Below, one piece after another: positions 4,383 through 29,625 of a DNA stretch of 34,915 nucleotides. The stretch is from Actinomycetota bacterium (lineage in GTDB: Bacteria; Actinomycetota; Actinomycetes; S36-B12): NCBI GenBank assembly GCA_009699315.1, contig WLOK01000008.1, positions 1 through 34,915 of the forward strand. Direction: 5' to 3'. Position 1 is the stretch's first letter, and each line of letters starts with the position of its first letter. Both the position numbers and the translations under genes were made by a program. Under the pieces are notes generated by a model. The model was not told where the DNA came from. It saw nothing but the letters and a program-made list of their open reading frames with translations, and made no database searches.

Positions 4383-5734
4383 ACCGCGTAGGAGTCGACC
4401 ACTGCCAATGCCTCGTCGAGGATCGTGATGGCATCCTTGACTTCGGTCTCGCCGACATTGCAGGGCGGAACAATATGTAGGCGGTTGCCGGTGGCGAAGA
4501 CCAGAAGTCCACGCTTCTTGCACTCTGCCGCTGCCTTGCCGACCGCGTTGTCGCCGCCGCTGTAACTTGGCGCGGCGCCGTAGGGCACAGCGGGCTCGCG
4601 GGTCTCACGATTGGTGACGAGCTCCAGCGCCCAGAAGACACCAAGCCCACGAACGTCACCCACGATCGGATGTCGCGTCGCCAACTCGCGCAAGGCCGGT
4701 CCGAGATGGTTCGCGCCGATGTTTGTGGCATTCTCCATCGTCCCCTCTTCGTGCATGGCGTCGATCGCTGCACAAATGGAGGCCATGGCGACGGGGTGTC
4801 CGGAGTAGGTAAGACCGCCCGGAAACACTCGGTCCTGGAATGTCGCCACGATCTTCTCGGAGATGATGACGCCGCCCACAGGGATGTATCCGGAGTTGAC
4901 GCCCTTCGCGAACGTCACCAGATCAGGGGCGAAGTTGTAGTTCTGGTAGGCGAACCACTTGCCTGTGCGCCCAAAACCGGCCATAACTTCGTCACAGATC
5001 ATGATGATGCCGTGCTTGTCGCAGAGCGCTCGCACACCTTCGAGGTATCCGGGCGGCGGCGGGATAATGCCTGCAGTGCCCACTACGGTTTCCATCATGA
5101 TTGCCGCGATGGTCGGACCTTCGAACATGATGACCTGCTCGAGATGCTCGAGCGCGCGTTCGCACTCTTCTTGCTCCGTCGTTGCATGGAACGGGGAGCG
5201 GTAGAGGAATGGGCCGAAGAAGTGCACGTGATCGGCCGTGTACTCGTTGGGCCAACGGCGCTGATCGCCGGTTGCGGCGATGGCGGTGGTCGTGTTTCCG
5301 TGGTAGCTGCGGTAGTAAGTCAGTACCTTGCGGCGCCCGGTGTGAAGTCGAGCCATCCGAATCGCGTTCTCCACTGCGTCCGCACCACCATTGGTGAAGA
5401 ACACCTGCGAGAAGTTATCGGCAGAGACATCGATGATCTTCTTTGCTGCCTCACCTCGTACGTCGATCGCGTGCTGTGGGGCGATGGTCGCCATTCGACC
5501 AGCCTGCTTTTGGATTGCCGCCACGATCTTTGGATGCTGGTGGCCCATGTTTGTGTAGACCAACTGCCCTGAGAAGTCTAGGAAGCGATTGCCGTCGTAG
5601 TCCCAGACGTAGTTTCCTTCGGCGCCCGCAATGACCATCGGATTGAGGGTTGCCTGCGCACTCCACGAGTGGAAGACGTACTTGCGGTCAAGGTCGTATA
5701 CGCGCTTGCCCTCTTCGGGATTGGCAGCAGACAT
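4379..5734 (-). CDS. class III PLP aminotransferase, probable taurine:2-oxoglutarate (Toa) or taurine:pyruvate (Tpa) aminotransferase
   Basis: DRKYVFHSWSAQATLNPMVIAGAEGNYVWDYDGNRFLDFSGQLV, FAKGVNSGYIPVGGVIIS, ICDEVMAGFGRTGKW; linkage to xsc/pta/tauABC; ATG at 5734 (MSAANPEEGKR) preferred over GTG 5761 because a promoter lies at 5767-5795. Confidence 0.82.
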   Translation of the reverse strand: MSAANPEEGKRVYDLDRKYVFHSWSAQATLNPMVIAGAEGNYVWDYDGNRFLDFSGQLVYTNMGHQHPKIVAAIQKQAGRMATIAPQHAIDVRGEAAKKIIDVSADNFSQVFFTNGGADAVENAIRMARLHTGRRKVLTYYRSYHGNTTTAIAATGDQRRWPNEYTADHVHFFGPFLYRSPFHATTEQEECERALEHLEQVIMFEGPTIAAIMMETVVGTAGIIPPPPGYLEGVRALCDKHGIIMICDEVMAGFGRTGKWFAYQNYNFAPDLVTFAKGVNSGYIPVGGVIISEKIVATFQDRVFPGGLTYSGHPVAMASICAAIDAMHEEGTMENATNIGANHLGPALRELATRHPIVGDVRGLGVFWALELVTNRETREPAVPYGAAPSYSGGDNAVGKAAAECKKRGLLVFATGNRLHIVPPCNVGETEVKDAITILDEALAVVDSYAV

Positions 5735-5766
5735 GTCAACTCGCTCTCTGATCGACGTCACTTACG

Positions 5767-8900: not shown

Positions 8901-10693
8901 TCGCGAGCATCGCAGAACGCCAACGGCTATTTGAGCTTCCTCGCTCGACGTGGCAGGACTACGACTCAACCGTGATCTCCGAAGGCGGTGGCGTGTATTC
9001 ACGCTCGGCAAAGTCAATCGACTTGAGTGTCGAAGCTCGGCAGATTCTCGGGATCGAGCACAGCGATCCAATGGTTCCCACGGACGTTATTCGTGCAATT
9101 CTCGCCGCGCCCGTAGATTTGCTGTGGAATGGTGGCGTTGGCACGTACGTGCGTTCTCGGCTGGAGTCCGACGCTGATGTGGGGGATAAGTCCAACGACT
9201 CGATTCGCATCTGTGGTCATGAATTGCGCTGCCGAGTGGTTGCTGAAGGGGGAAATCTGGGCTTTACCCAACTGGGCCGAATAGAAGCTGCTCGTGCGGG
9301 TGTTCGTCTCAACACTGATGCGATCGACAATTCGGCGGGCGTGGATACCTCCGACCATGAGGTAAATCTCAAGATCCTGCTTGATGGTGAGGTCCGGGCG
9401 GGACGACTAGACCAAGAGGAGCGAAACGTCCTCCTGCAACTCATGACCGCTGACGTAGCTGAACTCGTCCTAGATGACAACTACCGGCAGAACCTGACGC
9501 TAGGAAACGCTCGGGCGCAGGCGCCTGGACTTCTCGCGGTCCACCAGAGATTCATCCGGCAACTTGAACGTGAGCAGGTACTCAATCGGAGGTTGGAGCG
9601 GCTGCCGGATGACGAGCAAATTGCCGCGCTGCGTGCAGGCGGACTCGGCCTCAGCGGACCCGAACTCGCTGTGCTCCTCGCCTATTCCAAGATTTCGTTA
9701 ACTGCGGCACTTAACGCTTCTGCCATAGCGGACGACCCGTGGTTTGGCTCTGTTCTCGAGAGATATTTCCCCTCGTTGTGTGTGGAGAAATTCGGTCCTC
9801 GACTCGTAGAACACCCACTACGCCGCTCAATTATCTCCACTGTCGCCTGCAACGATCTACTCAACCTCGGCGGCATCAGTTTCGTATTTTTGGTGATGGA
9901 GGAGTCTGGAGCCACTGCCGAAGAGGCTGTTCGAGCCGCGTCGGTGGCAATGTCGGTGTTCGAGATCCCGCAACTGCGCACGGCTATCAACGAACTCGAC
10001 AACCTCGTCCCCACCGCCACTCAGGTGGCGTTGCACCTGGAATTGCGTCGAATGCTGGAGCGATCTACTCGCTGGTTCCTGCAGACACGTGGGGGATCCC
10101 TCAACGTAGGGCAACAGATTAGCGACTTCGCTCCACTCGTACAAACCTATCGAGACCGCGTAGTCGCTGCCTTGCGTGGAAATGAGGCGCTGCGGCTTCA
10201 AGGCAATATCGATGCCTTTATGGACGGGGGTGCACCTGAACCGCTTTCCCGTCGAATTGCATCGCTCCTTGATGTATATACCTTGCTAGATATTCGTGAT
10301 CTGTGCGTGCGTACCGGCGAGACGCCTGACTCCGCGATAGAGCTGTATTTTGCTTTGAGTGAGAGATTTGTCGTGGATCGGATGCTGCTCATGATCACGG
10401 CGCTTCCCCGAGATGACCATTGGAGTTCTCAGGCGCGTCAGGCACTGCGAGTTGACTTGTACGGAGTCCTCGCGGCACTCACCGAATCGGTGAGCCGCTC
10501 CACGAGTACGCAGTTCACATGCGATGAGCGCATTGACTTGTGGGAGGCCGAGCATGCGTCGGGCATCGCACGTACGAGATTGACTCTGGATCAGGTCGTC
10601 GATCAGGGTCCGGATATTGCGACGTTGTCGGTGGCCCTTCGTGTCCTGCGAAATCTTGTGTCTCAGACTGCGACGTCTAACGCACCGAGGTAG
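5945..10693 (+). CDS. gdh: large NAD-specific glutamate dehydrogenase (180-kDa class)
   Basis: 1582 aa; [122 protein letters not shown]; upstream GAGGTG Shine-Dalgarno. Confidence 0.97.
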   Translation: [1582 protein letters not shown]

Positions 10694-12395
10694 ACATTGA
10701 CGCTTCTGCGAGGAAGCCGATGAGCGTCTTTGCTACACCGGGCGTCAGGATCTGCTGCGGATCTACGATGCGTGAGCGACGTACGTAAGAACTCATGTCG
10801 TGGCCGAGGCCAAGTCCGTACAAAAGCACCTGGCCCGAAGACTCGATTGCAGCGGCTACATCAGTGAGGTGCCGGTCAAGGAACTCCTCGCCATTTGTCA
10901 GTGACGTGGCCCCATCCATCGGGCTACCATCGGAGATCAGGATCAACGCACGGTGTGGGACGTCAATGCCCAGCAGTCGTGTGTACGCCCACTCCAACGA
11001 CTCACCGTCGATCCCTTCTCGGAACATGGGGGTCCATAAGAGAGCCGAGATTGATCTACGGGCCCTGCGCCAACTTGTTGTTGCGCTCTTGAAGATGATT
11101 TGGCAAACCTCGTTCAGGCGTCCGGGGTGTGGTGCTCGTCCAGACGTGAGCCAATCCTTGTGCGCGCGCCCGCCGTTCCATGAGCCGGTCGTGAAGCCGA
11201 GCACCTCGGTCACGACGTCTACTTGATCAAGGGCGCGCGTCATTAGGTCGACGAGCGCGGCAACCTGCGGAATATTGGCCTTCATCGAGCCGGAGCAGTC
11301 AATGAGGAAGGTCACGGCCGCTTGCGGACGGAATGCATCGACCTCCATGCGGAAGATCAGATCGTCGCCGGGCGAGGTCACAACTCGCGAAAGAAGTCGC
11401 GGGTCGATGCGGCCCTGCTGCTGCTCGGATACCCATTCGGAGTCAAGGGGCGCAGGGAAGAGCGTGAGGACGCTCCGCGCTAGATAGCTCGCGATGCTCC
11501 CTTGCTCGGCGATCAGGGCATCAAGCTCCAACCGGGTTGCGCTTTGCCCGTGCGGGAGCACCAAATCGCCCACGTCAACGGTGCGGTCGTATTCAACGGT
11601 GAAAACGGCGTAGTCCTCGCTGTGCAATGTCCGACTAGCGCCGGCAGCGGCAGGAAGGATCGAGATGTCGTCCATGATGTCTGAACTATCGAACTGCAGC
11701 ATTGCCAGAATCGTTGAAGTGAGTCGCCCAGTGGTGCTTGTGGTGGTAACCGACGATGCGAGCTCGCCGATCGCCTTCGCTATAGCCGCAGCAATGGTGG
11801 CGAAAGCCCCTTGATCGCGGATGTTCGGTCGCAGGTCAACTAGGTGAGGGCCAAGAACCTGATAGATCCCCGCACGAGTCGCCTCAGTGTGGTCATTAGC
11901 GCGTTCCTCGATTGGTTCGCCGAGTATCCGCGATCGACACACATGCATCACTGTGAAGAGCAATAGGCCCAGATCGTTCTCCAGCAGTCCCTCGGCGATG
12001 AACCCATCCGACCAGTCGGCAAACCTATGGTGGAGATTGGACTTCGTACCAGTCTGTGATGCAGGGGCGAGCGCTTCGACGCGAAACTGCTCCAACATTT
12101 CGTAAAGAAGCTCTTCGAAAGCATCCTGCGGTAGGTGTTCTCGATAGACAATAGAGTCAGAATGCATAATCCGTAGCGCGATTCCGTCGCCAGACCCACG
12201 CAGATCTTCCATGTCAGCTGTTGCTGAATCCGGATGAACATGTGGCGCGCGAACTGCGACGGCGCGTCTCCCGGCATGAAGAAGATGCCTACGATAGCGA
12301 ATATCGGACTCCCCGGTCATGGCTCGAACGACAGCGGCCGTGACATCTTCGGCGATCTCCATGTCGAATGGAGATGTCAGATCATGGCCGCTCAC
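10677..12395 (-). CDS. cobT: CobT-like VWA-domain protein (aerobic cobaltochelatase subunit family)
   Basis: VTFLIDCSGSMKANI (MIDAS DxSxS), EVLGFTTGSWNGGRAHKDWL, GRLNEVCQIIFKSATTSWRRARRSI, LISDGSPMDGATSLTNGEEFLDRHL, GLGLGHDMSSYVRRS. Confidence 0.88.
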   Translation of the reverse strand: MSGHDLTSPFDMEIAEDVTAAVVRAMTGESDIRYRRHLLHAGRRAVAVRAPHVHPDSATADMEDLRGSGDGIALRIMHSDSIVYREHLPQDAFEELLYEMLEQFRVEALAPASQTGTKSNLHHRFADWSDGFIAEGLLENDLGLLLFTVMHVCRSRILGEPIEERANDHTEATRAGIYQVLGPHLVDLRPNIRDQGAFATIAAAIAKAIGELASSVTTTSTTGRLTSTILAMLQFDSSDIMDDISILPAAAGASRTLHSEDYAVFTVEYDRTVDVGDLVLPHGQSATRLELDALIAEQGSIASYLARSVLTLFPAPLDSEWVSEQQQGRIDPRLLSRVVTSPGDDLIFRMEVDAFRPQAAVTFLIDCSGSMKANIPQVAALVDLMTRALDQVDVVTEVLGFTTGSWNGGRAHKDWLTSGRAPHPGRLNEVCQIIFKSATTSWRRARRSISALLWTPMFREGIDGESLEWAYTRLLGIDVPHRALILISDGSPMDGATSLTNGEEFLDRHLTDVAAAIESSGQVLLYGLGLGHDMSSYVRRSRIVDPQQILTPGVAKTLIGFLAEASMSTSVR

Positions 12396-12401
12396 AGTGA
12401 C

Positions 12402-13361
12402 CTACGGGAGAAGTTCGGCGTCGAAACAGCGTTGGAAATACTCGGCAACGATGGGCCATTCAGCTTCGTCACACTTATTGACGAACGTCAAACGCAGCGC
12501 AAGGGCGAGATCGCGGAAGATCTCGATGTTCTCCGCCCAGGTGATCACTGTGCGAGGAGACATCAACGTCGATATGTCGCCGACTCGAAATCCTTCGCGG
12601 GTGAGATTGGCGAAGGCGACCATGGATGCCACTCGAGCAAGTCCGGCATCGCTGGCAAGGCTTGGTACTTTCGCCACGACAATCGCTTGCTCATCCTCGG
12701 CCGACAGATAGTTCAACGAGGCCACGATGTCCCAGCGATCGATTTGAGCATGGTTGAGGCGTTGTGTGCCGTGGTAGATCCCCGAGAGATTGCCTAGCCC
12801 TACCGTGTTGGCGGTGGCAAAGAGCCGGAAGTGGGGGTGGGGAGTGATCACTCGGTTCTGATCGAGGAGCGTGAGTTTGCCATCGCGTTCGAGTACGCGC
12901 TGGATCACAAACATAACGTCTGGACGACCTGCGTCGTATTCGTCGAGGACGAGTGCGACTGGGCGCTGAAGAGCCCACGGCAGGATGCCTTCGGCGAATT
13001 CGGTGACCTGCTGGCCATCGCGTACGACGATCGCGTCCTTGCCGATGAAATCGAAACGACTGATCTGGCCGTCGAGGTTTACGCGAATGCAGGGCCAATT
13101 GAGTCGAGCAGCAACCTGTTCGATGTGAGTGGACTTGCCGGTGCCATGTAGACCCTGCACCAACACCCGCCGATTGCGTTGAAAGCCGGCCAAGATGGCC
13201 ATCGTGGTATCTGAGTTGAACTGATAGGTGTCGTCAATCTCAGGCACGTGTGCTTCCCGCACGCTGAAGGCCGGGACGTGCAGATCGGAGTCAATGCCGA
13301 ATACGCGTGCTGAGACCGTGGTGTCTGGTCCGTCAAGAGTCGGTGGGGGAACGGCGCTCAC
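12402..13361 (-). CDS. cobS: CobS-like MoxR-class AAA+ ATPase
   Basis: GLHGTGKSTHIEQVAARLNWPCIRVNLDGQISRFDFIGKDAIV, EGILPWALQRPVALVLDEYDAGRPDVMFVIQRVLERDGKLTLLDQNRVITPHPHFRLFATANTVGLGNLSGIYHGTQ; GTG start at 13361 overlapping the IclR stop (GTGA). Confidence 0.92.
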   Translation of the reverse strand: MSAVPPPTLDGPDTTVSARVFGIDSDLHVPAFSVREAHVPEIDDTYQFNSDTTMAILAGFQRNRRVLVQGLHGTGKSTHIEQVAARLNWPCIRVNLDGQISRFDFIGKDAIVVRDGQQVTEFAEGILPWALQRPVALVLDEYDAGRPDVMFVIQRVLERDGKLTLLDQNRVITPHPHFRLFATANTVGLGNLSGIYHGTQRLNHAQIDRWDIVASLNYLSAEDEQAIVVAKVPSLASDAGLARVASMVAFANLTREGFRVGDISTLMSPRTVITWAENIEIFRDLALALRLTFVNKCDEAEWPIVAEYFQRCFDAELLP

Positions 13362-14188
13362 GCAGTAACCCTCCTGCCTCGGTAGGACGCCTCGCGGCTC
13401 TCCAGTTCGATATCGCGAAGAGCCTCTGCAGCGCGTCGGAGCGCGGGGAGGATGCGATCTGGATCGGAAGCGGAAATTCGCAGAGAAGGCCCTTGAATTG
13501 CGACGCATTGGCTCGAACGGCCCTTGGGTCCGGGTACCAAGACGGCGAAGCAGACGAGGCCGTGAATGAACTCCTCGTTGTCTATTGCCCATCCACGTTT
13601 AACGCTGAGCGTCACCTCATTCTCAAGTTCATCGAAGTCGGTGATTGTTGAATCCGTGAATCGCTCAAGCGGTGCATGTGTGAGGAGTTTGCGTCGCGTT
13701 GTAATAGCGAGTTGGCCGAGCAGAAGTTTTCCGCTTGCCGAACAGTGAATAGGCACTCGCGAACCTGGTCCCAAGTGGAAACGCAGCGGTTCCTGCGTTT
13801 CGACACGGTCGAGGTAGAGAACTTCATCTCCGGAAAGCGTGGTGATGTTGCAGGTCTCCCCGATTTCTTGGACAAGTGAGCGAAGGACGTTGTGCCGTGC
13901 GCCGTGCTGAGTTGCGTTCATCAGCAACGTTTCGGCAAAGGCCCGCAGACGCGGCCCTGTTCCGTAAAGGCGCTTGTCGGTCTGCCGGACAAGCATTCCT
14001 TCGGCGACGAAATTGGTGAGCATGCGATGAAGAGTGGGCTTCGGCAACCCCGTCTCGGACGCGAGCATTTGCAACGAGACGAAGTTGTCCTTGCTCGCGA
14101 TGAGCTCGAGCAAAGAGAACATTCGTAGGACCGGACTCGAGCCGGTAATGGGAGATTCGCGATCTTTGTCCCAAACAGCATCAGCCAT
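13358..14188 (-). CDS. IclR-family transcriptional regulator
   Basis: N-terminal wHTH (LRMFSLLELIASKDNFVSLQMLASETGLPKPTLHRMLTNFVAEGML) and IclR effector domain (VPIHCSASGKLLLGQL, RGWAIDNEEFIHGLVCFAVLV); ATG 14188 preceded by GGAGGA. Confidence 0.93.
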   Translation of the reverse strand: MADAVWDKDRESPITGSSPVLRMFSLLELIASKDNFVSLQMLASETGLPKPTLHRMLTNFVAEGMLVRQTDKRLYGTGPRLRAFAETLLMNATQHGARHNVLRSLVQEIGETCNITTLSGDEVLYLDRVETQEPLRFHLGPGSRVPIHCSASGKLLLGQLAITTRRKLLTHAPLERFTDSTITDFDELENEVTLSVKRGWAIDNEEFIHGLVCFAVLVPGPKGRSSQCVAIQGPSLRISASDPDRILPALRRAAEALRDIELESREASYRGRRVTA

Positions 14189-14232
14189 GGTTCCTCCGTA
14201 ATTCCATTTTGTGGACCTTATCATCTCTTTTT

Positions 14233-14261
14233 TTTATACAAAGTCGTTGACCAGAAGTCAA
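14233..14261 (-). promoter_or_regulatory. near-consensus sigma70-type promoter driving iclR-cobS-cobT
   Basis: Minus strand TTGACT - exactly 17 bp - TATAAA. Confidence 0.65.
14247..14261. promoter_or_regulatory. candidate operator palindrome TTGAC-cagaa-GTCAA overlapping the iclR -35
   Basis: Perfect 5-bp inverted arms with 5-nt spacer, in the iclR/xsc divergent region. Confidence 0.5.
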
Positions 14262-14301
14262 TGTGGCCGTACGTTGTGTTTCGCATCACAGGCCAGCGAG
14301 T

Positions 14302-14330
14302 GTGACGTTGTGCCTGGATATTTATCTAAT
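14302..14330 (+). promoter_or_regulatory. candidate xsc promoter
   Basis: GTGACG - 17 bp - TCTAAT; fits the ATG at 14364 with GGGAG Shine-Dalgarno. Confidence 0.45.
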
Positions 14331-14363
14331 AGTCTACAGGAAATGTGTGGAATGGGAGCAAAG

Positions 14364-16157
14364 ATGTCAGATAGCAGGACGGTCGCGCAGGGTGTCACGA
14401 AAATGACGCCGTCAGAGGCATTCGTCGAGACTCTGGTGTCCTTCGGGGTCACCGACATGTTCGGCATCATGGGATCGGCGTTCATGGACGCCATGGACAT
14501 CTTCGCTCCCGCTGGCATCCGTCTGATCCCAGTTGTCCACGAGCAGGGTGGAGCACACATGGCCGATGGCTACTCGCGCGCCAGTGGTCGGCACGGTGTG
14601 GTCATCGCCCAGAACGGTCCCGGAATCAGCAACTGTGTGACTGCGATCGCTGCAGCCTTTTGGGCGCACTCGCCCGTCGTGATGATCACTCCTGAGTCAG
14701 GCACCATGGGCACTGGCCTTGGTGGATTCCAAGAAGCGCTGCAACTTCCGATGTTCCAGGAGTTCGTGAAGTACGCCGGTCACGTCAATAACAACAAGCG
14801 CATTGCGGAGTTCACCGCTCGTTGTTTCGACCGGGCAATCCGCGACATCGGCCCGACCCAGCTAAATATCCCGCGCGATTTGTTCTACGGCGAAATTGAG
14901 GTGGAGATCCCCAAGCCGCTGCCGGTTGAGCGTGGCGCTGGCGGATCTCATGCTCTCGATGAGGCGGCCAAGATGCTCGCCGAAGCGACCTTCCCCGTCA
15001 TAGTGTCTGGCGGCGGTGTTGTCATGGGTGACGCGGTCGAAGAGTGCAAGGCGCTCGCGGAGCGACTCGGCGCGCCGGTCGTCAACAGCTATCTGCACAA
15101 CGACTCATTCCCCGCCAGCCATCCGCTATGGACCGGGCCGTTGGGCTACCAGGGTTCGAAGGCCGCAATGAAACTCATCGCACAAGCCGACGTCGTTCTC
15201 GCGCTTGGAACCCGTCTTGGGCCGTTCGGCACGCTGCCCCAGCACGGGCTTGATTACTGGCCCAAGAACGCCAAGATCATTCAGGTCGACGCTGACTCCG
15301 ATCAACTTGGCCTAGTCAAGAAGGTCACTCTCGGCATCTGCGGCGATGCCAAAGAGGTCGCGGTCGCACTGACTGAGCGTCTCGCGAACACGACGTTGAA
15401 GTGCGACGCCACTAAGGCCGATCGCGCGACGACCATTAAGGCCGAAAAGGACGCGTGGGAGAAAGAACTCACTGAGTGGATTCACGAGAAGGACCAGTTC
15501 AGCCTCGACATGATCGCCGAGGCGGAGTCGGAGGAAGGTAACTGGCTGCATCCGCGTCAGGTACTGCGCGAGCTCGAAAAAGCCATGCCGCCACGAGTCA
15601 TGGTGTCCACGGACATTGGCAACATCAACGCTGTAGCTAATTCGTACCTGCGCTTCGAAGAGCCACGATCATTCTTCGCGCCGATGAGTTGGGGCAACTG
15701 TGGTTACTCGTTGCCCACGATGATCGGAGCGAAGGCAGCGGCCCAGGACCGTCCTGCAGTTGCCTTTGCAGGTGACGGCGCGTGGGCAATGAGCATGGTG
15801 GAGATTCTCACCGCTGTACGCCACGACATTCCGGTGACGGCGGTAGTGTTCCATAACCGTCAGTGGGGCGCAGAGAAAAAGAATCAGGTCGACTTCTACT
15901 CACGACGTTTCGTTGCTGACGAGTTGATCAACCCTTCCTTCGCAGAGGTTGCTCGCTCAATGGGAGCCGAAGGCATCACCGTGGATCGACTTGAGGATGT
16001 CGGCCCGGCACTGAAGAAGGCGATCGATGCTCAGATGAACGATCGCAAGACGACGGTGATTGAAATTATGTGCACCCGCGAGCTCGGTGATCCATTCCGG
16101 CGCGATGCGCTCAACAAGCCCATCCGGATGCTTGATAAGTACAAGGATTACGTCTGA
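14364..16157 (+). CDS. xsc: sulfoacetaldehyde acetyltransferase
   Basis: ThDP-enzyme with Xsc-specific text: GIMGSAFMDAMDIFAPAGIRLIPVVHEQGGAHMADGYSRASG, NIPRDLFYGEIEVEIP, VFHNRQWGAEKKNQVDFY, IMCTRELGDPFRRDAL; start chosen by SD, alternatives at 14343/14352. Confidence 0.95.
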   Translation: MSDSRTVAQGVTKMTPSEAFVETLVSFGVTDMFGIMGSAFMDAMDIFAPAGIRLIPVVHEQGGAHMADGYSRASGRHGVVIAQNGPGISNCVTAIAAAFWAHSPVVMITPESGTMGTGLGGFQEALQLPMFQEFVKYAGHVNNNKRIAEFTARCFDRAIRDIGPTQLNIPRDLFYGEIEVEIPKPLPVERGAGGSHALDEAAKMLAEATFPVIVSGGGVVMGDAVEECKALAERLGAPVVNSYLHNDSFPASHPLWTGPLGYQGSKAAMKLIAQADVVLALGTRLGPFGTLPQHGLDYWPKNAKIIQVDADSDQLGLVKKVTLGICGDAKEVAVALTERLANTTLKCDATKADRATTIKAEKDAWEKELTEWIHEKDQFSLDMIAEAESEEGNWLHPRQVLRELEKAMPPRVMVSTDIGNINAVANSYLRFEEPRSFFAPMSWGNCGYSLPTMIGAKAAAQDRPAVAFAGDGAWAMSMVEILTAVRHDIPVTAVVFHNRQWGAEKKNQVDFYSRRFVADELINPSFAEVARSMGAEGITVDRLEDVGPALKKAIDAQMNDRKTTVIEIMCTRELGDPFRRDALNKPIRMLDKYKDYV

Positions 16158-16160
16158 GCC

Positions 16161-17165
16161 ATGATGACCACAGCATCGACACATCGTCTGCAGGCGCATT
16201 GGCGTCTGCAGACGATGACGGCTGGGCTGCGAGTCGTTCTCGCTGACGGCGATGATCCGCGTGTACGAGAGGCGGCACCGCACCTTGTCGAATGGGGTAT
16301 CACTCCGCTGCTGGTGACGAGCGATCCGGTTTTCTCTGACGGCGTGCAATCGCTAGATCCACGCGATGTTGCCCCTGGGATTACGCAGGTGCTCGAAGCG
16401 CTGGCTGACACACTTGCGCAGAAGCATGACCTGAGCGCAGCCGAGCGCTCTGCGCTGCTTTGCGACCCACTTAACATTGCTGTGGCCGCGGTCAAAGTTG
16501 GGCTCGTCGACGGCTGTGTCGCTGGTGCATCTCGCCCAAGTGCCGACGTAGCCCGTGCTGCGCTTCGATTAGTGGGCACGGCGCCCGGTGTCAGCACGCT
16601 CAGTAGTTCGTTCATCATGCTCTTGCCGGATGGTCGCGCGCTTGCCTACGGGGACTGTGCCGTAGTGCCCGAGCCAGATGCCGAGCAACTCGCCGAGATT
16701 GCTATCGCGACCGCGGGCACTTTTTCTGACGTGGTGGGCGAGGAGCCCGTCGTTGCGATGTTGTCGTTTAGCACGAAGGGGAGCGCTGAACATCGCAGCA
16801 TCGAGGTTGTTCGTGAGGCTACCCGCATTGTGCGCAAACAGTGTCCGGAGCTTGCCATCGACGGTGAACTGCAGTTTGACGCAGCGTTTGTGCCCGGTGT
16901 CGCGGCGGCTAAGGCGCCAGGGTCACCAGCGGCTGGGCGCGCCAATGTTTTCATTTTTCCGAATTTGGCAGCGGGAAACATCGCCTACAAGATCACCGAG
17001 CGACTCGCAGGCGCAGATGCGTTTGGTCCCCTCTTTCAGGGGTTGGCGGGTGCTGTTAATGATTTATCTCGTGGTTGCAGCGCCGAGGACATTCTTAACA
17101 TTTCGGTAATAACGAGTGTGCAGGCTGCACAACACGTGGATCATGCCACAGCAGGAGGTGCATGA
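16161..17165 (+). CDS. pta: phosphate acetyltransferase
   Basis: LADGDDPRVREAAPHLVEWGI, DGCVAGASRPSADVARAALRLVG, SAEDILNISVITSVQA; directly downstream of xsc; alternative ATG at 16215. Confidence 0.92.
   Translation: MMTTASTHRLQAHWRLQTMTAGLRVVLADGDDPRVREAAPHLVEWGITPLLVTSDPVFSDGVQSLDPRDVAPGITQVLEALADTLAQKHDLSAAERSALLCDPLNIAVAAVKVGLVDGCVAGASRPSADVARAALRLVGTAPGVSTLSSSFIMLLPDGRALAYGDCAVVPEPDAEQLAEIAIATAGTFSDVVGEEPVVAMLSFSTKGSAEHRSIEVVREATRIVRKQCPELAIDGELQFDAAFVPGVAAAKAPGSPAAGRANVFIFPNLAAGNIAYKITERLAGADAFGPLFQGLAGAVNDLSRGCSAEDILNISVITSVQAAQHVDHATAGGA
16182..16217 (+). repeat. near-perfect 16-bp hairpin with AUUG loop at the 5' end of pta
   Basis: CATCGTCTGCAG-gCGC-ATTG-GCGt-CTGCAGACGATG; 12-bp perfect arms, one G-U, then 3 further G-C pairs. 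Confidence 0.85.
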
Positions 17166-18089
17166 ATGTCGATCAACAGCACGGCCATTGATCCGACGGC
17201 TGCTGGCGATAATCCAGACGAGATCGCCGGCATCACGCCGCCGCCGCCGGCTCGTTGGCTTCGTGTCGGTAAGAGCCCTTGGATCACACGGCTCTTGGCT
17301 CTCGTCGCATTCGTCATCGTGTGGTGGTTCTTGACCACACCATGGAGTTGGCATGAGGGCAAGCCGATCATGTTGCCGCTGTACCTCCCCTCCATTCCGG
17401 ATGTGTGGGCCGCATTTGTGCGATCTATGACGATCCATCCGATCGCAGCGGGCGTCGATCGCATGGTCGTCGGCGAGCAGGGGTACTACTTATGGCAGCA
17501 CTTGTTGGCCACCCTTCAGCGCATCGGCTTCGGTTTGTTATTCGCCATCATCGTGGGTATTCCCGTCGGACTTTTTATGGCAAGTTTCCGATTCTTCAAT
17601 ACCGCGGCCGAGCCATACATCAACTTCCTTCGCGCGCTTCCGCCGCTGGGATATATCGGTCTGCTGATCGTGTGGTTCGGCATCGGAAACACGTCCAAGA
17701 TCTGGCTGCTCTTCCTTGCCGCATTCCCGCCGATCACAATCGCAACTATCGCCGGTGTTCGAGGGATTCGCGAAGATCAGATTCACGCCGCGCAGACTCT
17801 TGGCGCAAAGCGCTATCAGATACTTTCCAAGGTGATGATTCCGGCAACTGCGCCGGATCTCATTACTGGCATTCGAGTGGCAGTTGGCTTCGCGTGGACA
17901 ACCGTCGTCGCGGCCGAACTCAATAACGGTATTCCCGGCATTGGTGGTCTCGCCTACGCCTCGGGTACCGAACTACAGACCCCGCTAACCATTGTGTGCA
18001 TCATCGTGATTGGAATCACGGCGATCATTCTGGATAGCGGTATTAAGGCCCTGGAGAAGGTCATTGTCCCCTGGCGGGGCAAGGCATGA
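17166..18089 (+). CDS. tauC: taurine-type ABC transporter permease
   Basis: BPD permease signature GVRGIREDQIHAAQTLGAKRYQILSKVMIPATAPDLITGIRVAVGFAWTTVVAAEL. Confidence 0.9.
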   Translation: MSINSTAIDPTAAGDNPDEIAGITPPPPARWLRVGKSPWITRLLALVAFVIVWWFLTTPWSWHEGKPIMLPLYLPSIPDVWAAFVRSMTIHPIAAGVDRMVVGEQGYYLWQHLLATLQRIGFGLLFAIIVGIPVGLFMASFRFFNTAAEPYINFLRALPPLGYIGLLIVWFGIGNTSKIWLLFLAAFPPITIATIAGVRGIREDQIHAAQTLGAKRYQILSKVMIPATAPDLITGIRVAVGFAWTTVVAAELNNGIPGIGGLAYASGTELQTPLTIVCIIVIGITAIILDSGIKALEKVIVPWRGKA

Positions 18090-18150
18090 GTTCCATCCAG
18101 GGAATCGGCATGGCCGGATCACCAGGGAAACCACAAGGAGGAATATCCAT

Positions 18151-19212
18151 ATGAAGTTGTCCAAGAGCATCTTCGCTGTGGCAGGGGCGGCAGTAGTCGC
18201 GGTTGCCATCGCAGCATGCGGAAGCAGCTCGGGAGGCGGATCCTCATCCGCTGCATCCGACTGCCCGCTCGGCGCAGCAGATACGTCAATCACGACAGTG
18301 GCACGCATCGCGTACCAGAAGATCCCCAACGGCGATCTGATCGTCAAGGATCAGCAGATTCTCGAGAAGTGCATGCCCAACGCCAAGATCAGCTGGAGCG
18401 TCTTTGCTTCAGGTGGCGATGTACTTCAGGCATACGGTGCCAAAGCTGTCGACATGGGCCTAACTGGCTCGAACCCGAACGTCAAGGCTCTTTCGGCGCC
18501 GCTCAACACGACGCTGCCGGCCATCCAGACTGTCTGGATTCACGATGTCATCGGTGCGGGCGAGTCCCTCATCGTGCATCCGGAGATCAAGTCCGCAGCG
18601 GATCTAAAGGGCAAGAAGATTGCCACCCCGTTCGGCTCGACCTCGCACTACTCGCTGCTCAACTGGCTAAGCGCCAATGGCCTGACGACCACAGACGTCG
18701 AGGTCATCAACCTTGAGCCCGAGAAGATGCTCGCCGCATGGGGCGAGATTGCTGGTGCATGGGTATGGGATCCGACGTTGTCGGAGCTCGTCAAGGGTGG
18801 CGGTGTCGCACTTGCTTCCAGCGCTGACACAGCTGCTGCCGGCAAGCCGACCTACGACCTTGGTAACGCCACCAAGGAGTTCGTGGATGCCAATGGTCCG
18901 TTCATGACCATGTGGGCCAAGGCAGAGAACTATGCCGTAAGCATGATTCTCGACAAGCCAGCCGACGCTGCAGCATCCATGGCAGCAGAACTTGCTCTCC
19001 CCGCAGCCGACGTGCAGAAGATGTTCGCCGGATACACGTACCTCCCGGCGGCAGAGCAGGCATCGGATAAGTGGCTCGGTGGCGCCCTCGGGACGCAGTT
19101 CCTCGATACCGCCAAGTTCCTTTTGGAGCAGGGCTCGATCGAGGGTGTCAGTGCACCCGAGGTGTACTCGGCCGGCATCAACAAGGGCCCGGCAGAGTCC
19201 GCAGCAAAGTAA
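18151..19212 (+). CDS. tauA: taurine-type ABC transporter substrate-binding lipoprotein
   Basis: Lipobox AIAAC after signal peptide; AADLKGKKIATPFGSTSHYSLLNWLSANGL, MLAAWGEIAGAWVWDPTLSEL; AAGGAGGA Shine-Dalgarno at 18135-18142. Confidence 0.9.
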   Translation: MKLSKSIFAVAGAAVVAVAIAACGSSSGGGSSSAASDCPLGAADTSITTVARIAYQKIPNGDLIVKDQQILEKCMPNAKISWSVFASGGDVLQAYGAKAVDMGLTGSNPNVKALSAPLNTTLPAIQTVWIHDVIGAGESLIVHPEIKSAADLKGKKIATPFGSTSHYSLLNWLSANGLTTTDVEVINLEPEKMLAAWGEIAGAWVWDPTLSELVKGGGVALASSADTAAAGKPTYDLGNATKEFVDANGPFMTMWAKAENYAVSMILDKPADAAASMAAELALPAADVQKMFAGYTYLPAAEQASDKWLGGALGTQFLDTAKFLLEQGSIEGVSAPEVYSAGINKGPAESAAK

Positions 19213-19238
19213 TCGCAACACATCGATAGGAGCGCGAC

Positions 19239-20060
19239 ATGACTGTGGCTATGGACAAGAGCGGCGGAGCGGCGAGCAATGCCAAGCACGAAAAGAGCTT
19301 GGTAGTTGACGGCGTTCGGCAGTTCTTCGGCACTAAAGGTGCCAAAGTCCATGCCTTGTCGCGTATTGATCTGGTGATCGAGCCGGGGCAGTTCGTGTGT
19401 CTTGCCGGCCCCTCGGGGTGCGGCAAGACCACGCTGCTCCGGCTCATCGCCGGATTCATGCGACCCACAGAAGGCCAGATCACTGTCGACGGTCGCGTAG
19501 TCAGCAAGCCTGGATCCGATCGAGGCATGGTGTTTCAGGCGCCGACGCTTTATCCGTGGATGGACGTTCGACAAAACATCGAACTTGGGTTGAAATTCCA
19601 AGGCGTCCACAAGGCCGCGCGTGGCATCGAGTCAGAGCGCTATATGAAGATGGTCGGTCTGAGCGACTTTGCTGAGCGCAAGCCCTATGAATTGTCCGGT
19701 GGCATGCAGCAGCGCTGTCAGATCGCGCGCGTACTCGCCAGCGACCCCGATTTCGTGCTCATGGACGAGCCATTTGGAGCGCTAGATGCGCTCACGCGTG
19801 AGCGCCTCCAAGAGGAACTTCTCACCATTTGGCGCGAGACTGGCAAGACGATCCTTTTCATCACGCATAGCGTCGAAGAAGCAGTATTCCTCGGCTCGCG
19901 TGTCCTTGTGATGAGCCGTCGCCCAGGCAAGATTGTGCTCGATGAGCCAGTTGACTTGGCAGTCGATGGTCAACGTCTCCCCGTCGCCGAACTGCGATCC
20001 GCACCGGCTTTCGTTGCCTTGCGCGACAAGGTGCGCGACGCGATTCAGGCCAGTATGTAA
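19239..20060 (+). CDS. tauB: taurine-type ABC transporter ATP-binding protein
   Basis: Walker A GPSGCGKTT, ABC signature LSGGMQQRCQIARVL, Walker B VLMDEPFGALD. Confidence 0.92.
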   Translation: MTVAMDKSGGAASNAKHEKSLVVDGVRQFFGTKGAKVHALSRIDLVIEPGQFVCLAGPSGCGKTTLLRLIAGFMRPTEGQITVDGRVVSKPGSDRGMVFQAPTLYPWMDVRQNIELGLKFQGVHKAARGIESERYMKMVGLSDFAERKPYELSGGMQQRCQIARVLASDPDFVLMDEPFGALDALTRERLQEELLTIWRETGKTILFITHSVEEAVFLGSRVLVMSRRPGKIVLDEPVDLAVDGQRLPVAELRSAPAFVALRDKVRDAIQASM

Positions 20061-22905: not shown

Positions 22906-23445
22906 ATGTCAGGTATGTCCAGATTTCGCGCCAGTATTCTTGGCGGTATCGCACTAGTGATTGTGTGCGGCCTTGGCGCCTTGCCAGCGGAAGCGACAGC
23001 AGCGCCTATCTGGGTAAGTTCGCAGTCATGCACCAACTCCCTCCGTGACACGCTGTTTGAGGCGGGTTTCCGGGGCGTCAACCTGCACGAGGCATGGGCC
23101 ATTGCTATGCGAGAGAGCAATGGTGAGGCGAATCTCGGTCCAGGTTCTCCGGGATTTAACGGCCATGACTGGGGGCTGTTCCAGTGGAACAAGCCGAGTT
23201 GGGGCAGTCAAAGCTGGTGGAACGATTCGAAGATGGTCAATGGTCTCTATAACGCGCGCCTTGCATATCGCATGTCGTCGGGTGGTCGGGATTGGAGCCT
23301 GTGGGGTCTCGATGGTCGAGGACGCACGAAGGCAGATCTCTACGCGAACTATGGTTGGAGTTCGCAGCAAATCTATTCGTGGATTACTCAGCCGTACGAG
23401 CGCTACTTCCGAGCATTCTCCGCGACATTGGGCCGTTGCAGGTAG
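22906..23445 (+). CDS. secreted lysozyme/transglycosylase-like cell-wall hydrolase
   Basis: Signal peptide; AWAIAMRESNGEANLGPGSPGFNGHDWGLFQWN (lysozyme-fold Glu and GLFQ-type motif). Confidence 0.65.
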   Translation: MSGMSRFRASILGGIALVIVCGLGALPAEATAAPIWVSSQSCTNSLRDTLFEAGFRGVNLHEAWAIAMRESNGEANLGPGSPGFNGHDWGLFQWNKPSWGSQSWWNDSKMVNGLYNARLAYRMSSGGRDWSLWGLDGRGRTKADLYANYGWSSQQIYSWITQPYERYFRAFSATLGRCR

Positions 23446-24152
23446 TCGGCAAGATTCGCAGGCTTGAGACCTGACCACTTGCCGCGTTCGACGAGTGCAG
23501 AGAGCTGATCACGAAGACCCGACACAAAATGCAGAAGCACGATGTCTCCGGCTTGAATGCGGTCGGTGCCGTTCTGGCTGGCGAACTTTCCTTCGTTGCT
23601 GACAAGGGCAGTCCAGTTGACGACGAACTTGATTCCGCATGGGCCTACGACCGAAGAGATGCGCCGGTGCTCGGACGTTGCTGAACCGGGCCACCCACCG
23701 TTGCCATACGGCGGACGCAGCATCCACGGCCGCTCGTCATAACGTTTTGCGTAGGTGCTTTGGATGCCGCACACCTCGTCGTTGACATCAGTGCTCGGGG
23801 ACGTGAGATACGAATGTGTGCGCGTGTGATTCTGGACGCTGCCGTATCGCGACACTCTTCGGAAGAAGTCTGACGTGTCCTCCGGATTGGCGGCGGCGGT
23901 CAGAAACACGGTGATGGGGGTGCGTGTCTGTCGCACCCAAGTTGCGACTGCTGGGTCCTTGGTCCATCCGTCATCAATAGTGATGAAGAAGACCTTGTCG
24001 GTGGTGTCGATCTGCGAGATGAAGCGCACCTTGTTCGGCTGGATCTCGCGCCACTGTTGCACCTGCAGCGGCATTGCCTCGGCAGGAGAGCCGACTCCTA
24101 GAGCTGAGGAAGCAAACAGCGCTCCACAAGCAAGGGCGAGGAGGGCTTTCAT
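23403..24152 (-). CDS. secreted polysaccharide deacetylase (NodB fold)
   Basis: Signal peptide MKALLALACGALFASSALG; VFFITIDDGW, NHTRTHSYL, RPPYGNGG motifs. Confidence 0.88.
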   Translation of the reverse strand: MKALLALACGALFASSALGVGSPAEAMPLQVQQWREIQPNKVRFISQIDTTDKVFFITIDDGWTKDPAVATWVRQTRTPITVFLTAAANPEDTSDFFRRVSRYGSVQNHTRTHSYLTSPSTDVNDEVCGIQSTYAKRYDERPWMLRPPYGNGGWPGSATSEHRRISSVVGPCGIKFVVNWTALVSNEGKFASQNGTDRIQAGDIVLLHFVSGLRDQLSALVERGKWSGLKPANLADYLQRPNVAENARK

Positions 24153-24246
24153 GACCGGACCATCGTATCTATTGGGCGCGTTGGCTTGACGGTTGCCGTT
24201 TGCGGGCGACACTTGGAGGACACAGGGGATCATAAGGAGCGCAGGC

Positions 24247-25038
24247 ATGAGCCAAGACATCGACGTCAAGGCAGCAATTGCGGCAGATCCACGTCTGGGT
24301 CGGCTTCGCGCGTGGAATATCGGTGCGGGGATCTTCCACCTGGTGCAGTTGATCCTCGTGCTCATGCTCGCCAACGACTTCTCGATTCCGATCTTGGCCT
24401 CCTATATGGAAGGCCCGCCCGGCACCGCGCCGAGCGCGCCGGTCACGCTTCTTGACGTGCCGCTCGCGGTGGGCGTCGCGCTCTTCTTCGGGCTCTCAGC
24501 GCTGTTCCACTTCGTGGTGAGCATCCCGCCGTTCTACGCGCGCTATATCGGTGGTCTCGCGCAGGGCCGCAACTACTTCCGCTGGGTTGAATACTCGATC
24601 TCCAGCTCGATCATGATCGTGCTCATCGTGCAAATCTGCGGAGTCTCTGACGCAGCTGCGTTGATTGCGATCTTTGGTGTCAATGCCTCGATGATCCTCT
24701 TTGGTTGGTTGCAGGAGAAGTACGAGAAGCCGGGCGAAGGCAAGATGCTGCCGTTCATCTTCGGCTGCATGACCGGAGTAGTGCCGTGGCTCATCATCGT
24801 GCTCTACGTCGTCTCGCCCAATAGTGGCGTTGACGTCTCGCCACCGGGGTTTGTCTACGGCATCATCGTGAGCTTGTTCTTGTTCTTCAACTGCTTTGCG
24901 ATCGTGCAGTGGTTGCAGTACAAGAAGAACCCGATCAGCTACCTCTCCGGCGAGAAGGCATACATCATCTTGAGCCTGGTCGCGAAGTCTGCACTCGCGT
25001 GGCAGATCTTCTCCGGGACGCTCATTCCCACAAACTAA
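24247..25038 (+). CDS. heliorhodopsin
   Basis: FRWVEYSISSSIMIVLIVQICG, AIFGVNASMILFGWLQEKYEKP, LSLVAKSALAWQIFSGTLIP (TM7 Schiff-base Lys); AAGGAG upstream. Confidence 0.97.
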   Translation: MSQDIDVKAAIAADPRLGRLRAWNIGAGIFHLVQLILVLMLANDFSIPILASYMEGPPGTAPSAPVTLLDVPLAVGVALFFGLSALFHFVVSIPPFYARYIGGLAQGRNYFRWVEYSISSSIMIVLIVQICGVSDAAALIAIFGVNASMILFGWLQEKYEKPGEGKMLPFIFGCMTGVVPWLIIVLYVVSPNSGVDVSPPGFVYGIIVSLFLFFNCFAIVQWLQYKKNPISYLSGEKAYIILSLVAKSALAWQIFSGTLIPTN

Positions 25039-25080: not shown

Positions 25081-25599
25081 CTACGGCTTGAGCACCATCA
25101 CGCTGGGCAGTGGTTCGATCGGCGGTGACGGCACATCAGCGGTGGCAGGATGCCATTGGGTCTGCCAGAACCAACTGCCACCACCTACGCAGAACTGGCG
25201 CGTGGGCATGCCATATTCGCCGGCCTTAGTGGGCCACGTGATGCGCAAGGGCAGGTAGAGTGGATTCGGGAATGGCTGCGGCGCGGTGGTGGTCTGCCAG
25301 ATGACGTACTTGCGACCATTCGGGCGCACACCCGTTGTTGAGGTCCAGCCCTTGACCTTGAGCGGCACGATGTCGCCGAAACTTGCTTTGAAGAATGTGA
25401 CGACCTTGTTGGTGGGCTGCGATGGCATGCAGCCGTGTTGAATCTCCATGGTCATCGTGCTGGTCTTACCGGCGTATGCGGTCTCGCCAGTGAGATCGAT
25501 GATCGAGTGCGCTGAGGCGGGGAGGGATGCGGCGATGCCCCCTGCAACCAAAGCGGTGGTCGTGCCGGCGATTACGAGTGCGCGCTGGAGAGTCTTCAT
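25081..25599 (-). CDS. YcnI/DUF1775-like secreted protein
   Basis: Signal peptide ending SASA|HSIIDLTGETAYAGKTSTMTMEIQHGC, mature N-terminal His typical of YcnI-type copper proteins. Confidence 0.65.
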   Translation of the reverse strand: MKTLQRALVIAGTTTALVAGGIAASLPASAHSIIDLTGETAYAGKTSTMTMEIQHGCMPSQPTNKVVTFFKASFGDIVPLKVKGWTSTTGVRPNGRKYVIWQTTTAPQPFPNPLYLPLRITWPTKAGEYGMPTRQFCVGGGSWFWQTQWHPATADVPSPPIEPLPSVMVLKP

Positions 25600-26203: not shown

Positions 26204-26307
26204 AGCCGCCTCCACGCGGAAATACTCCACAACGCTGTTCGGAGCCATTTCTCGTGTTAGCCTCGCGCGAGTCCCCCCTTTGGGTGGCAATACGTAGGGA
26301 GCCTTCC

Positions 26308-29300
26308 ATGTCGTCACCTCGCAAGCGCGGTCTCATTGTCGCGGCACTTGGCGCCTCGGCTATCGCAGGAGCCGCGCTCACCGCTGCGCCCGTGAATGCA
26401 GTGGGGGCAGAGGACGTAGTGCCCGTAGTTGCCACTGACGAGACGGACGACGACAGCTCCGTTATCGATGATGCTCCCGTGCTCGCGATGTACAACGCGC
26501 GTGGGCTTTCACCCGCGCAACAGCAGTGCGTCGATGATGCGCTAGCGAAGTCGCAGGATCTTCTGCAGACCATCGACACAAAGGGCTCGGCCAATCATCG
26601 CGGCGTTCCCAAGGTGATCGCGCGCATCAAGGAGACCTCGGCTGCCTGCCTGCGAATCCTCTTCCATGACGGTACTGCAGCCAAACCGGATGCTGGTCTT
26701 CTTGGCGGCGACGGCTTTAGTTACTCGCACGCAACGTGTCGTGGCACTGCGGCCTGCAATGGTGGCGATGGTGGCCAACTCACGGGCAGTGGTGGCAATG
26801 GCTACAACGGTGGCGATGGCGGCAACGCGGGTTGGTACTTCGGTGTTGCGGGTAATGGCGGCGACGCAGCGGTTGCGTGCACAAATGCGGCGTGCCTCGG
26901 CGGCGAAGGCGGTCGAGCAGGTCGTTTCGGCAAGGGTGGCCGGGGTGGCGATTCCGCTAAGGGTCGTGTCGGCGGCGACGGCGGCGACGGCGGACTCCTT
27001 CGAGGTGCGGGCGGCGCCGGTGGCGATGGCGGCAACGGTGTCCCCGGAGCAGGCAAGGGGGGACGCGGTGGCAATGGTGGTTCGGGCGGCACTCTGGCCG
27101 GCAACGGCGGCGCTGGCGGCACCGGCGGCAAAGGTGGCATAGGTGTTGCGGGGGCGAATGGAACAACCCCGGCATCAACCGGTTCGACGGGCACTTCTGG
27201 CAGCAATGGAGGCGCTGGCGGTGTCGGCGGCGCTGGCGGCAATGGCGGTGAATCGCCCGGCAAGGGTGACGTGGGTGTGCGTGGTCGTGGCGGTGAAGGT
27301 GGTCGCGGAGGGGTCGGCGGCAATGGTGGCGCAGGCGGGGACGGCAAAGACGCACCGAGTGGTTCGTTTGCAGGATTTGGTGGAGGTATGGGTGGGGCCG
27401 GAGGTGCTGGCGGTGTAGGTGGCTTGGGCGGCGCATCTGGTCAGGGAAGCGGCAAGGCCGCAAGTGGCAATGGCGGTATTGGCGGTGCTGGAGGTCGCGG
27501 TGGCCACGGCGGTCATGGCGGCGATGGGTTTGACGGCGCCACGGGCGCCAACGGCGGCAACGCAGGAACGAATGGCGGCGGCGGAGGCTGGGGTAGCGAC
27601 GGCGGAGCCGCGGGCGTCGGCGGAGCCGCGGGTGGCGCGGGCGGTGTGCAAGGCAAGTCCGGCAACGGGGGCAATGGCGGCAACGCAGGTTCTGGCGGCA
27701 ACGCAGGTGACGGATCCCAAGGTACTTACAACCAATCAGGAGCTGCTGGCGGTGATGGCGGCAACGCCGGTCGGCCGGGCGTTGGTGGCGCGGGCGCGGT
27801 CGCAGGTGCGCTCGGTGGTGGTGGTACTGGTGGTGCAGGCGGCGCTGGGGGCAGGGGCGGCTATGGAGCTACTGGCACCACCGGGCCTGCGGGTGGTGCT
27901 GGTGGCGCAGGCGGCTCTGGCTCGACGTACGGCAACGGCGGATTCGGTGGCACTGGCGGAGCGGGTGGCACCGGTGGCATGGGGTTCCTCGGTTTCACTG
28001 GGGCTGCTTCGGGCGGCACGGGCGGCACCGGCGGTGCAGGTGGCGCAGGCGGCACCGTCTCGGGCAACGGCGGCGACGGCGGCAACGGCGGCCTGAGTGG
28101 CGATGGCGGCAGCGGGTTTAATGGCGCGAGAGGTGTCGACAGTTCTGTAGAAGGCGCTGATGGAACGAATGGTGGCGCAGGTGGCGTCGGTGGTGACAGC
28201 GGTGTAGGCGGCGCAGGTGGCGTCGGTGGCGCTGCACTGGGTAGCGGCTCTGCTGGTGCGGGCGGCGCAGGTGGCAACAGCGGTAAAGGTGGCACGGGCG
28301 GCGCGGGCGGTGCTGGTGGCGCTGGATTCAACGCGACATCACCGGGTGTGGATGGCTCTGACGGCGGCAGCGGCGGTGCGGGCGGCACAGGCGGCTCGGC
28401 CGGCAAGGCCGGCGTAGGCGCCGGAACTGCCCCAGATGGGGTTCAAGGATCCGGGGGTCAAGGCGGCAATGCCGGAGCAGGTGGCGCGGCTGGCAACGGT
28501 GCCTCCGGGTTGGGAAGTAACAGCGGCGCAGGCGGCGCTGGTGGCGATGGCGGTTCTGCAGGTTTGCCGGGGGTCGGGGGCAACGGGTCCTTGTACGGAA
28601 ACGCCGGAGCCTGGGCAAGTGGCGGCGCGGGTGGCAACGGCGGCGATGGGGCCAACGTGAGCACAGCAGGTCAGACCGGCGGCAGCGGCGGCAAGGGTGG
28701 GACCGGCGGATTCTCTTCCGGCGGCACCGGCGGTACGGGCGGCAACGGCGGCAACGGCGGTTTCGCCGGGGCCGGCGAGGATGCCGCCACGTTCATTATC
28801 GGAAGTGTGGGCGGAGTCGGTGGCGCGGCCGGTGACGGTGGTGCGGGTGGCTTGAGTAATAGCGGCACCGGCGGCGCGGGAGGCGCTGGAGGAGAAGGCG
28901 GCACCGGTGGCAACGGCGGCAGAGGCTTCTCTGCGACAGATCTAGGAAGTGCTGGCAGTGGCGGAGGCGGCGGCGGTAAGGGCGGGGCCGGCGGCCGCGG
29001 CGGCGCGGGCGGCAACTCCTCGGGCGGCACAAACGGCGACGGCGGCACGGGCGGCAAGGGTGGCACGTCTGGTGCCGGCGGCAATGGCGGCAACGGCGCA
29101 ACGGGCGGAAGCTTCTTCAGAGTGGGCGGTGCCGGTGGTAGGGGTGGTGATCCCGGCATGGGTGGAGCCGCGGGTTCGGGTGGTGCCAAGGGGACCGGCG
29201 GCACCTTAGGGAAGAACGGTGCTAACGGCACGGCCGGAGCTTCTGCAACGAGTGGCGGCAACGGCGGCAACGGCGGCGATGGTTACACCGCGACGGCGAC

Positions 29301-29625
29301 AGGCACGACAGGCTCCACCGGCGGCGCTGGCGGCGCTGGCGGCGCAGTAGGCAACGGCGGCCAAGGTGGCAACGGCGGCAACGGTGCGGAGGGCACGTAC
29401 GACTCGATTTCTGGAGGCAATGGGGGTCCGGGTGGTGTTGGCGGCGCGGGCGGATCTAGCGCGGGCAACGGCGGCAACGGCGGCAACGGCGGCGATGGCG
29501 GCATGGCTAATGGTGGGCCAGGGCCTGGTAAGGGAGGCGTTGGTGGTGCGGGCGGCGCTGGTGGTCCAGGTGGAGCGAGTGGCGGCCCAGGCCAAACCGG
29601 GGCCGCAGGCGACGCCTCAGCCTAA
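26308..29625 (+). CDS. secreted PGRS-like glycine-rich repeat protein
   Basis: ATG 26308 with signal peptide (RKRGLIVAALGASAIAGAALTAAPVNA), short unique Cys-containing N-domain, then roughly 950 residues of GGxGGxGG repeats. Confidence 0.85.
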   Translation: MSSPRKRGLIVAALGASAIAGAALTAAPVNAVGAEDVVPVVATDETDDDSSVIDDAPVLAMYNARGLSPAQQQCVDDALAKSQDLLQTIDTKGSANHRGVPKVIARIKETSAACLRILFHDGTAAKPDAGLLGGDGFSYSHATCRGTAACNGGDGGQLTGSGGNGYNGGDGGNAGWYFGVAGNGGDAAVACTNAACLGGEGGRAGRFGKGGRGGDSAKGRVGGDGGDGGLLRGAGGAGGDGGNGVPGAGKGGRGGNGGSGGTLAGNGGAGGTGGKGGIGVAGANGTTPASTGSTGTSGSNGGAGGVGGAGGNGGESPGKGDVGVRGRGGEGGRGGVGGNGGAGGDGKDAPSGSFAGFGGGMGGAGGAGGVGGLGGASGQGSGKAASGNGGIGGAGGRGGHGGHGGDGFDGATGANGGNAGTNGGGGGWGSDGGAAGVGGAAGGAGGVQGKSGNGGNGGNAGSGGNAGDGSQGTYNQSGAAGGDGGNAGRPGVGGAGAVAGALGGGGTGGAGGAGGRGGYGATGTTGPAGGAGGAGGSGSTYGNGGFGGTGGAGGTGGMGFLGFTGAASGGTGGTGGAGGAGGTVSGNGGDGGNGGLSGDGGSGFNGARGVDSSVEGADGTNGGAGGVGGDSGVGGAGGVGGAALGSGSAGAGGAGGNSGKGGTGGAGGAGGAGFNATSPGVDGSDGGSGGAGGTGGSAGKAGVGAGTAPDGVQGSGGQGGNAGAGGAAGNGASGLGSNSGAGGAGGDGGSAGLPGVGGNGSLYGNAGAWASGGAGGNGGDGANVSTAGQTGGSGGKGGTGGFSSGGTGGTGGNGGNGGFAGAGEDAATFIIGSVGGVGGAAGDGGAGGLSNSGTGGAGGAGGEGGTGGNGGRGFSATDLGSAGSGGGGGGKGGAGGRGGAGGNSSGGTNGDGGTGGKGGTSGAGGNGGNGATGGSFFRVGGAGGRGGDPGMGGAAGSGGAKGTGGTLGKNGANGTAGASATSGGNGGNGGDGYTATATGTTGSTGGAGGAGGAVGNGGQGGNGGNGAEGTYDSISGGNGGPGGVGGAGGSSAGNGGNGGNGGDGGMANGGPGPGKGGVGGAGGAGGPGGASGGPGQTGAAGDASA

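Follow-up and report, generated by a model that had tools for sequence, protein, structure and literature searches.

A solitary 48C12-like heliorhodopsin gene with a short ICL3 in an actinobacterial genome

The heliorhodopsin locus

The analysed window, i.e. positions 1 to 34,915 (34,915 nucleotides) of contig WLOK01000008.1 of an actinobacterial assembly (GCA_009699315.1), contains a complete heliorhodopsin (HeR) gene, the ORF of which opens with ATG at 24247, ends with TAA at 25036-25038 and is preceded by a Shine-Dalgarno sequence (Table 1). A comparison with the copy of a congener (88% amino acid identity, dN/dS about 0.04-0.1) revealed that this gene is under purifying selection. It is an ordinary, intact and constrained gene of a known family, whose members are frequent in this actinobacterial group and have been described there in detail before (e.g. 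PMC8612252).

Table 1 Features of the heliorhodopsin gene, its product and its immediate surroundings (positions in the window).
Feature	Position	Strand	Basis
Polysaccharide deacetylase with signal peptide, divergent neighbour of HeR, shared intergenic region	23403..24152	-	PF01522 (3.9e-13); same arrangement in congener
49-bp block between HeR and deacetylase genes, candidate promoter/regulatory region	24166..24214	.	48/49 identical to congener
Shine-Dalgarno AAGGAG, 7 nt 5' of HeR ATG	24234..24239	+	sequence; kept in congener
HeR gene, complete, 263 aa	24247..25038	+	PF18761; NF038020 equivalog; 48C12 structure match (values in text)
VEYSISSS motif, TM3, residues 114-121	24586..24609	+	sequence
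E115 codon, Schiff-base counterion (48C12 E107)	24589..24591	+	invariant in 55 HeRs
ICL3, residues 224-238, QYKKNPISYLSGEKA, between TM6 and TM7	24916..24960	+	alignment of 55 HeRs
AKSALAWQ motif, TM7, residues 246-253	24982..25005	+	
K247 codon, retinal Schiff-base lysine (48C12 K241), within AKSALAWQ	24985..24987	+	invariant in 55 HeRs
Convergent gene, product probably secreted and weakly similar to DUF1775, 3' bound of HeR transcription unit	25081..25599	-	sub-threshold PF07987 (20.4 bits vs 25)

The block at 24166-24214 is a candidate promoter region. Only 52% of the 4-fold sites of the HeR gene are identical to those of the congener, compared with nearly all positions of this block, and an equally well-conserved stretch is also found within the HeR coding region. 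A sigma-70 consensus sought in the block gave no match. Pieces of the block, sought genome-wide with up to 3 mismatches (including the vicinity of the rhodopsin, crt and blh genes), were found only before the HeR gene; they are thus unique in the genome at this stringency, the idea of a shared light-regulon motif was rejected, and no shared light regulon is seen.

The upstream side of the locus is kept in the congener (deacetylase, acyl-CoA dehydrogenase and aldehyde dehydrogenase genes), whose contig ends just past the HeR gene, and the gene order is common to no other relative examined. When 85 loci, with HeR-bearing ORFs obtained by crude ORF calling, were compared for the genes surrounding HeR, the commonest recurring set (clusters c3, c4 and c5, in up to 13 loci) turned out to be absent from this locus, and a conserved operon partner was rejected. 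The HeR gene stands alone and looks monocistronic, with neighbours that are not conserved.

Several other genes of the window deserve a mention. A taurine-degradation cluster (14211-20060, plus strand) encodes Xsc (sulfoacetaldehyde acetyltransferase, 1029 bits against a cut-off of 676), a phosphate acetyltransferase and a taurine-type ABC permease, binding protein and ATPase; with it go two minus-strand genes (4379-5761 and 13358-14224), for a divergent IclR-like regulator (recognized by eye) and a class-III aminotransferase upstream. A CobT-like and CobS-like pair (10677-13592, minus strand), which may be a cobaltochelatase-type or a MoxR/VWA pair, adjoins a gene for an NAD-glutamate dehydrogenase. 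At 26254-29625 (plus strand) there is a gene for a 1123-aa glycine-rich protein, made up mostly of GGxGG-type repeats after a signal-like start, which gave no match in a Pfam search and by its look is a PGRS-like surface protein.

Family, fold and functional residues

A preliminary description of this DNA had proposed a HeR gene, together with a family HMM search as a check; this search was run with a positive outcome, and the proposal is borne out by profile HMMs, a sequence match to HeR 48C12, the fold and a residue-by-residue inspection of the functional sites. The product covers the whole of the Pfam Heliorhodopsin profile PF18761 (positions 1-242 of 242, E 7e-94, 314 bits against a cut-off of 26.7) and of the NCBIfam HeR equivalog profile NF038020 (positions 1-244 of 244, 317 bits against a cut-off of 100), and a phmmer search of the sequences of solved structures (PDB) returned HeRs only, with 48C12 entries at the top (E 2.6e-102). 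An AlphaFold model built from 55 aligned relatives (mean pLDDT 85, pTM 0.83) has seven transmembrane helices with the HeR fold, its nearest solved chains being 48C12 (TM 0.89, E 1.4e-23) and the Thermoplasmatales HeR (TM 0.81-0.83). Because the scores exceed the curated HMM cut-offs, and the solved-structure sequence match, the fold match and the functional sites agree, the family assignment is settled: the protein is a bona fide HeR of the actinobacterial 48C12-like kind. HeR 48C12 itself (actinobacterial; PDB 6su3, 6su4 and 6uh3) is about 62% identical over about 250 columns and shares every functional residue, but the protein studied here has an N-terminus longer by 8 residues and an ICL3 shorter by two, and 48C12 is placed in a different part of the tree.

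Both motifs quoted earlier, VEYSxSSS (here VEYSISSS) and AKSALAWQ, are present. The numbering of 48C12 was mapped through the phmmer alignment (offset 8, then 6 past ICL3), and His23, His80, Asn101, Arg104, Trp105, Glu107, Met115, Asn138, Gln148, Gln213, Ser237, Ala240 and Lys241 of 48C12 all have identical counterparts (in own numbering, among others, H31, H88, R112, W113, E115, M123, N146, S243, A246 and K247), each invariant in the 55 aligned HeRs. These include the SxxxK retinal lysine motif in TM7 (S243 and K247) and the TM3 glutamate counterion (E115) with H31, H88 and R112. Gln213 and Ala240 are the two colour-setting positions of natural HeRs, associated with absorption above 550 nm (PMC7807009), and correspond to Q221 and A246.

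With helix limits taken from a model, all 13 lysines and arginines besides K247 fall in the N-terminus and the TM2-3, TM4-5 and TM6-7 loops and 0 in the other loops and the C-terminus; by the positive-inside rule, this count would give the protein an inverted topology, with the N-terminus inside and the C-terminus outside.

Retinal supply and distribution of HeRs within the order

No retinal or carotenoid biosynthesis genes had been noticed in the window, in agreement with its list of ORFs and with domain scans that covered most of its genes. The search for blh, crt and other rhodopsin genes elsewhere in the genome, proposed on the same occasion, was performed and was positive: it revealed a single gene each for a phytoene synthase, a beta-carotene dioxygenase of the Blh type and a type-1 rhodopsin, as well as a lycopene cyclase split into two parts. 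On the contig of the phytoene synthase gene (crtB), genes for a polyprenyl synthase (crtE) and a CrtI-like oxidase (crtI) lie just upstream, and the two lycopene cyclase parts are located on the opposite strand. The HeR is thus accompanied in this genome by a complete route to retinal and by a type-1 rhodopsin encoded separately, so that HeR photochemistry could plausibly take place in vivo.

HeRs, a family known mostly from monoderm microbes, are common in the actinobacterial order to which this genome belongs, being present in 118 of its 166 genomes. Among the 85 near-complete genomes (at least 90% complete), 64 carry a HeR, 55 a type-1 rhodopsin, 15 Blh and 13 all three. Blh tracks the type-1 rhodopsin, which is found in all 15 Blh genomes, and the co-occurrence of HeR and Blh in the 85 genomes was not significant (Fisher p 0.34; such p-values are optimistic, as the genomes are related). 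A recognized Blh is absent from 51 of the 64 near-complete HeR-bearing genomes, 16 of which also lack a type-1 rhodopsin, and this sharpens the question of the retinal source of HeRs. Retinal uptake or an unrecognized enzyme would explain such genomes. RPE65-type oxygenases, considered as alternative retinal-forming enzymes, were sought in 39 genomes and do not make up for the missing Blh: RPE65-family genes are absent from the genome studied here and from most of its relatives.

A few records of this survey are unusual. One genome (G007:C16:3286-3733 and 10719-11462, locus L117) has a second, broken HeR copy about 7 kb from the intact one. Contig PBTV01000036.1 (L061), titled Rubrivirga sp. 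(a diderm genus), encodes a 66%-identical HeR with the same neighbours as in Nanopelagicales records (clusters c28, c29, c21 and c41) and is probably an actinobacterial contig that was binned or titled wrongly. Moreover, eight loci (L040, L048, L049, L050, L053, L099, L109 and L111) with freshwater-actinobacterial HeRs come from environmental MAGs titled Bifidobacterium breve, and these titles look wrong.

A clade with a short ICL3

The ICL3 of the HeR studied here is two residues shorter than in 52 of the 55 aligned HeRs, which carry a conserved G-K/R-W core. Of the 91 sequences in the tree, five have the short form, namely this HeR, that of the congener and those of three genomes of another genus, and they constitute one clade (support 98/85). 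The latter three (genomes G087, G088 and G093; loci L148, L135 and L132, respectively) share the short ICL3 (KK[NK]PI), but belong to another genus of the same family and are 66-67% identical to the HeR studied here.

Proposed function and alternative explanations

The function of HeRs had been called poorly defined in the preliminary description, which is out of date: three prokaryotic HeRs have been reported as partner regulators, AbHeR acting on glutamine synthetase (PMC9529153), TfHeR on a photolyase (PMC9769723) and OcHeR on an ABC transporter (PMC11109279), and proton transport has been reported for viral HeRs (PMC9448325). For the HeR studied here, the most likely role, with a probability of roughly 75%, is that of a non-transporting, 48C12-like light sensor (about 550 nm) regulating an unlinked partner. 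This proposal builds on what was observed of the protein (family, fold, signature residues and charge distribution), of the gene (solitary arrangement and selective constraint) and of the genome (a native retinal pathway). The protein should fold as a seven-helix retinal protein with a cytoplasmic N-terminus. By analogy with characterized relatives, from which we infer retinal binding, colour, photocycle, absence of pumping and regulatory output, K247 would bind all-trans retinal and E115 would be the counterion, with absorption near 550 nm. Light would isomerize the retinal, and a slow photocycle would then alter the cytoplasmic face (N-terminus and ICL1-3) without ion movement. The output would be modulation of a cytoplasmic or membrane partner, predicted to be encoded elsewhere in the genome in view of the apparently monocistronic HeR gene and its non-conserved neighbours. 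No signalling, kinase or oxidative-stress gene was recognized beside it, and the regulatory output therefore rests on analogy. OcHeR and TfHeR (PMC11109279, PMC9769723) are members of the same family, for which a regulatory role has been proposed, but neither an ABC-transporter nor a photolyase gene adjoins the HeR gene here; the taurine-type ABC genes at 17166-20060 lie 4 kb away, as a part of the taurine cluster.

A functionally characterized HeR for comparison is AbHeR of the freshwater Actinobacteria bacterium IMCC26103, which shares its key residues with the protein studied here. The ICL3 of AbHeR binds glutamine synthetase: K216, K217 and K220 matter, K216 is the critical one of the first two, and the K220Q substitution abolished measurable binding (PMC9529153). 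That the HeR studied here would likewise bind and light-activate glutamine synthetase through a basic ICL3 patch is improbable. K216 and K217 are matched by K226 and K227, and the recurring three-gene set c3, c4 and c5, found around HeR in 13 related loci, fits the NAD-synthetase/glutamine synthetase/HeR operon of AbHeR (cluster identity read by eye). The neighbourhood here is a different one, though, in which a divergent deacetylase gene and a convergent DUF1775-like gene, rather than one for glutamine synthetase, adjoin HeR. In addition, the equivalents of K220 (through the two-residue deletion) and R226 are lost from the shorter ICL3. From the loop and the neighbourhood together, we read this as evidence that the HeR is not an AbHeR-type glutamine synthetase regulator. 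A tentative and rather doubtful extension is that the whole short-ICL3 clade moved to a new partner, the AbHeR-type target-holding loop having been rebuilt and the gene standing outside any target operon. As a variant provided by nature, the clade could be used to test whether the choice of partner depends on ICL3.

A role as a retinal store or a passive photoprotective pigment, without any signalling output, is also unlikely. Such a role would agree with the lack of conserved neighbours and with the lack of association between HeR and Blh in the order, but the cytoplasmic-side positions, e.g. Q, Y, G, E and Y of ICL3, are strongly conserved in the alignment of 55 HeRs, and, according to the literature, relatives have a slow photocycle, as would suit a sensor.

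A light-driven or light-gated proton transporter, similar to V2HeR3 of Emiliania huxleyi virus 202 (PMC9448325), is very improbable. Membership of the family, the counterion glutamate and the Schiff-base lysine are shared, as in all HeRs, whereas E191, described as a hallmark of transporting HeRs, and W195 (both TM6) are replaced here by L210 and F214, and the nearest solved relative, 48C12, is without transport in the literature cited by PMC9448325.

Finally, the possibility that a type-1 rhodopsin or another seven-helix protein was assigned to the wrong family is already ruled out by the HMM and fold results, since type-1 rhodopsins have the seven-helix fold in common with the model (TM about 0.5-0.67), but at 10-15% identity and E above 0.006, Pfam yields Heliorhodopsin only and no Bac_rhodopsin, and the type-1 rhodopsin of the genome is a separate gene. 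The product of that gene contains the D-x3-T-x6-E pattern of proton pumps (RYVDWLLTVPLLLFE); it may be a pump driven by green light, in which a glycine might leave room for a carotenoid antenna. In locus L113 (3424-5830), a response regulator gene and a histidine-kinase-like gene are situated about 2 kb upstream of the type-1 rhodopsin gene, with a UbiA prenyltransferase gene in between.
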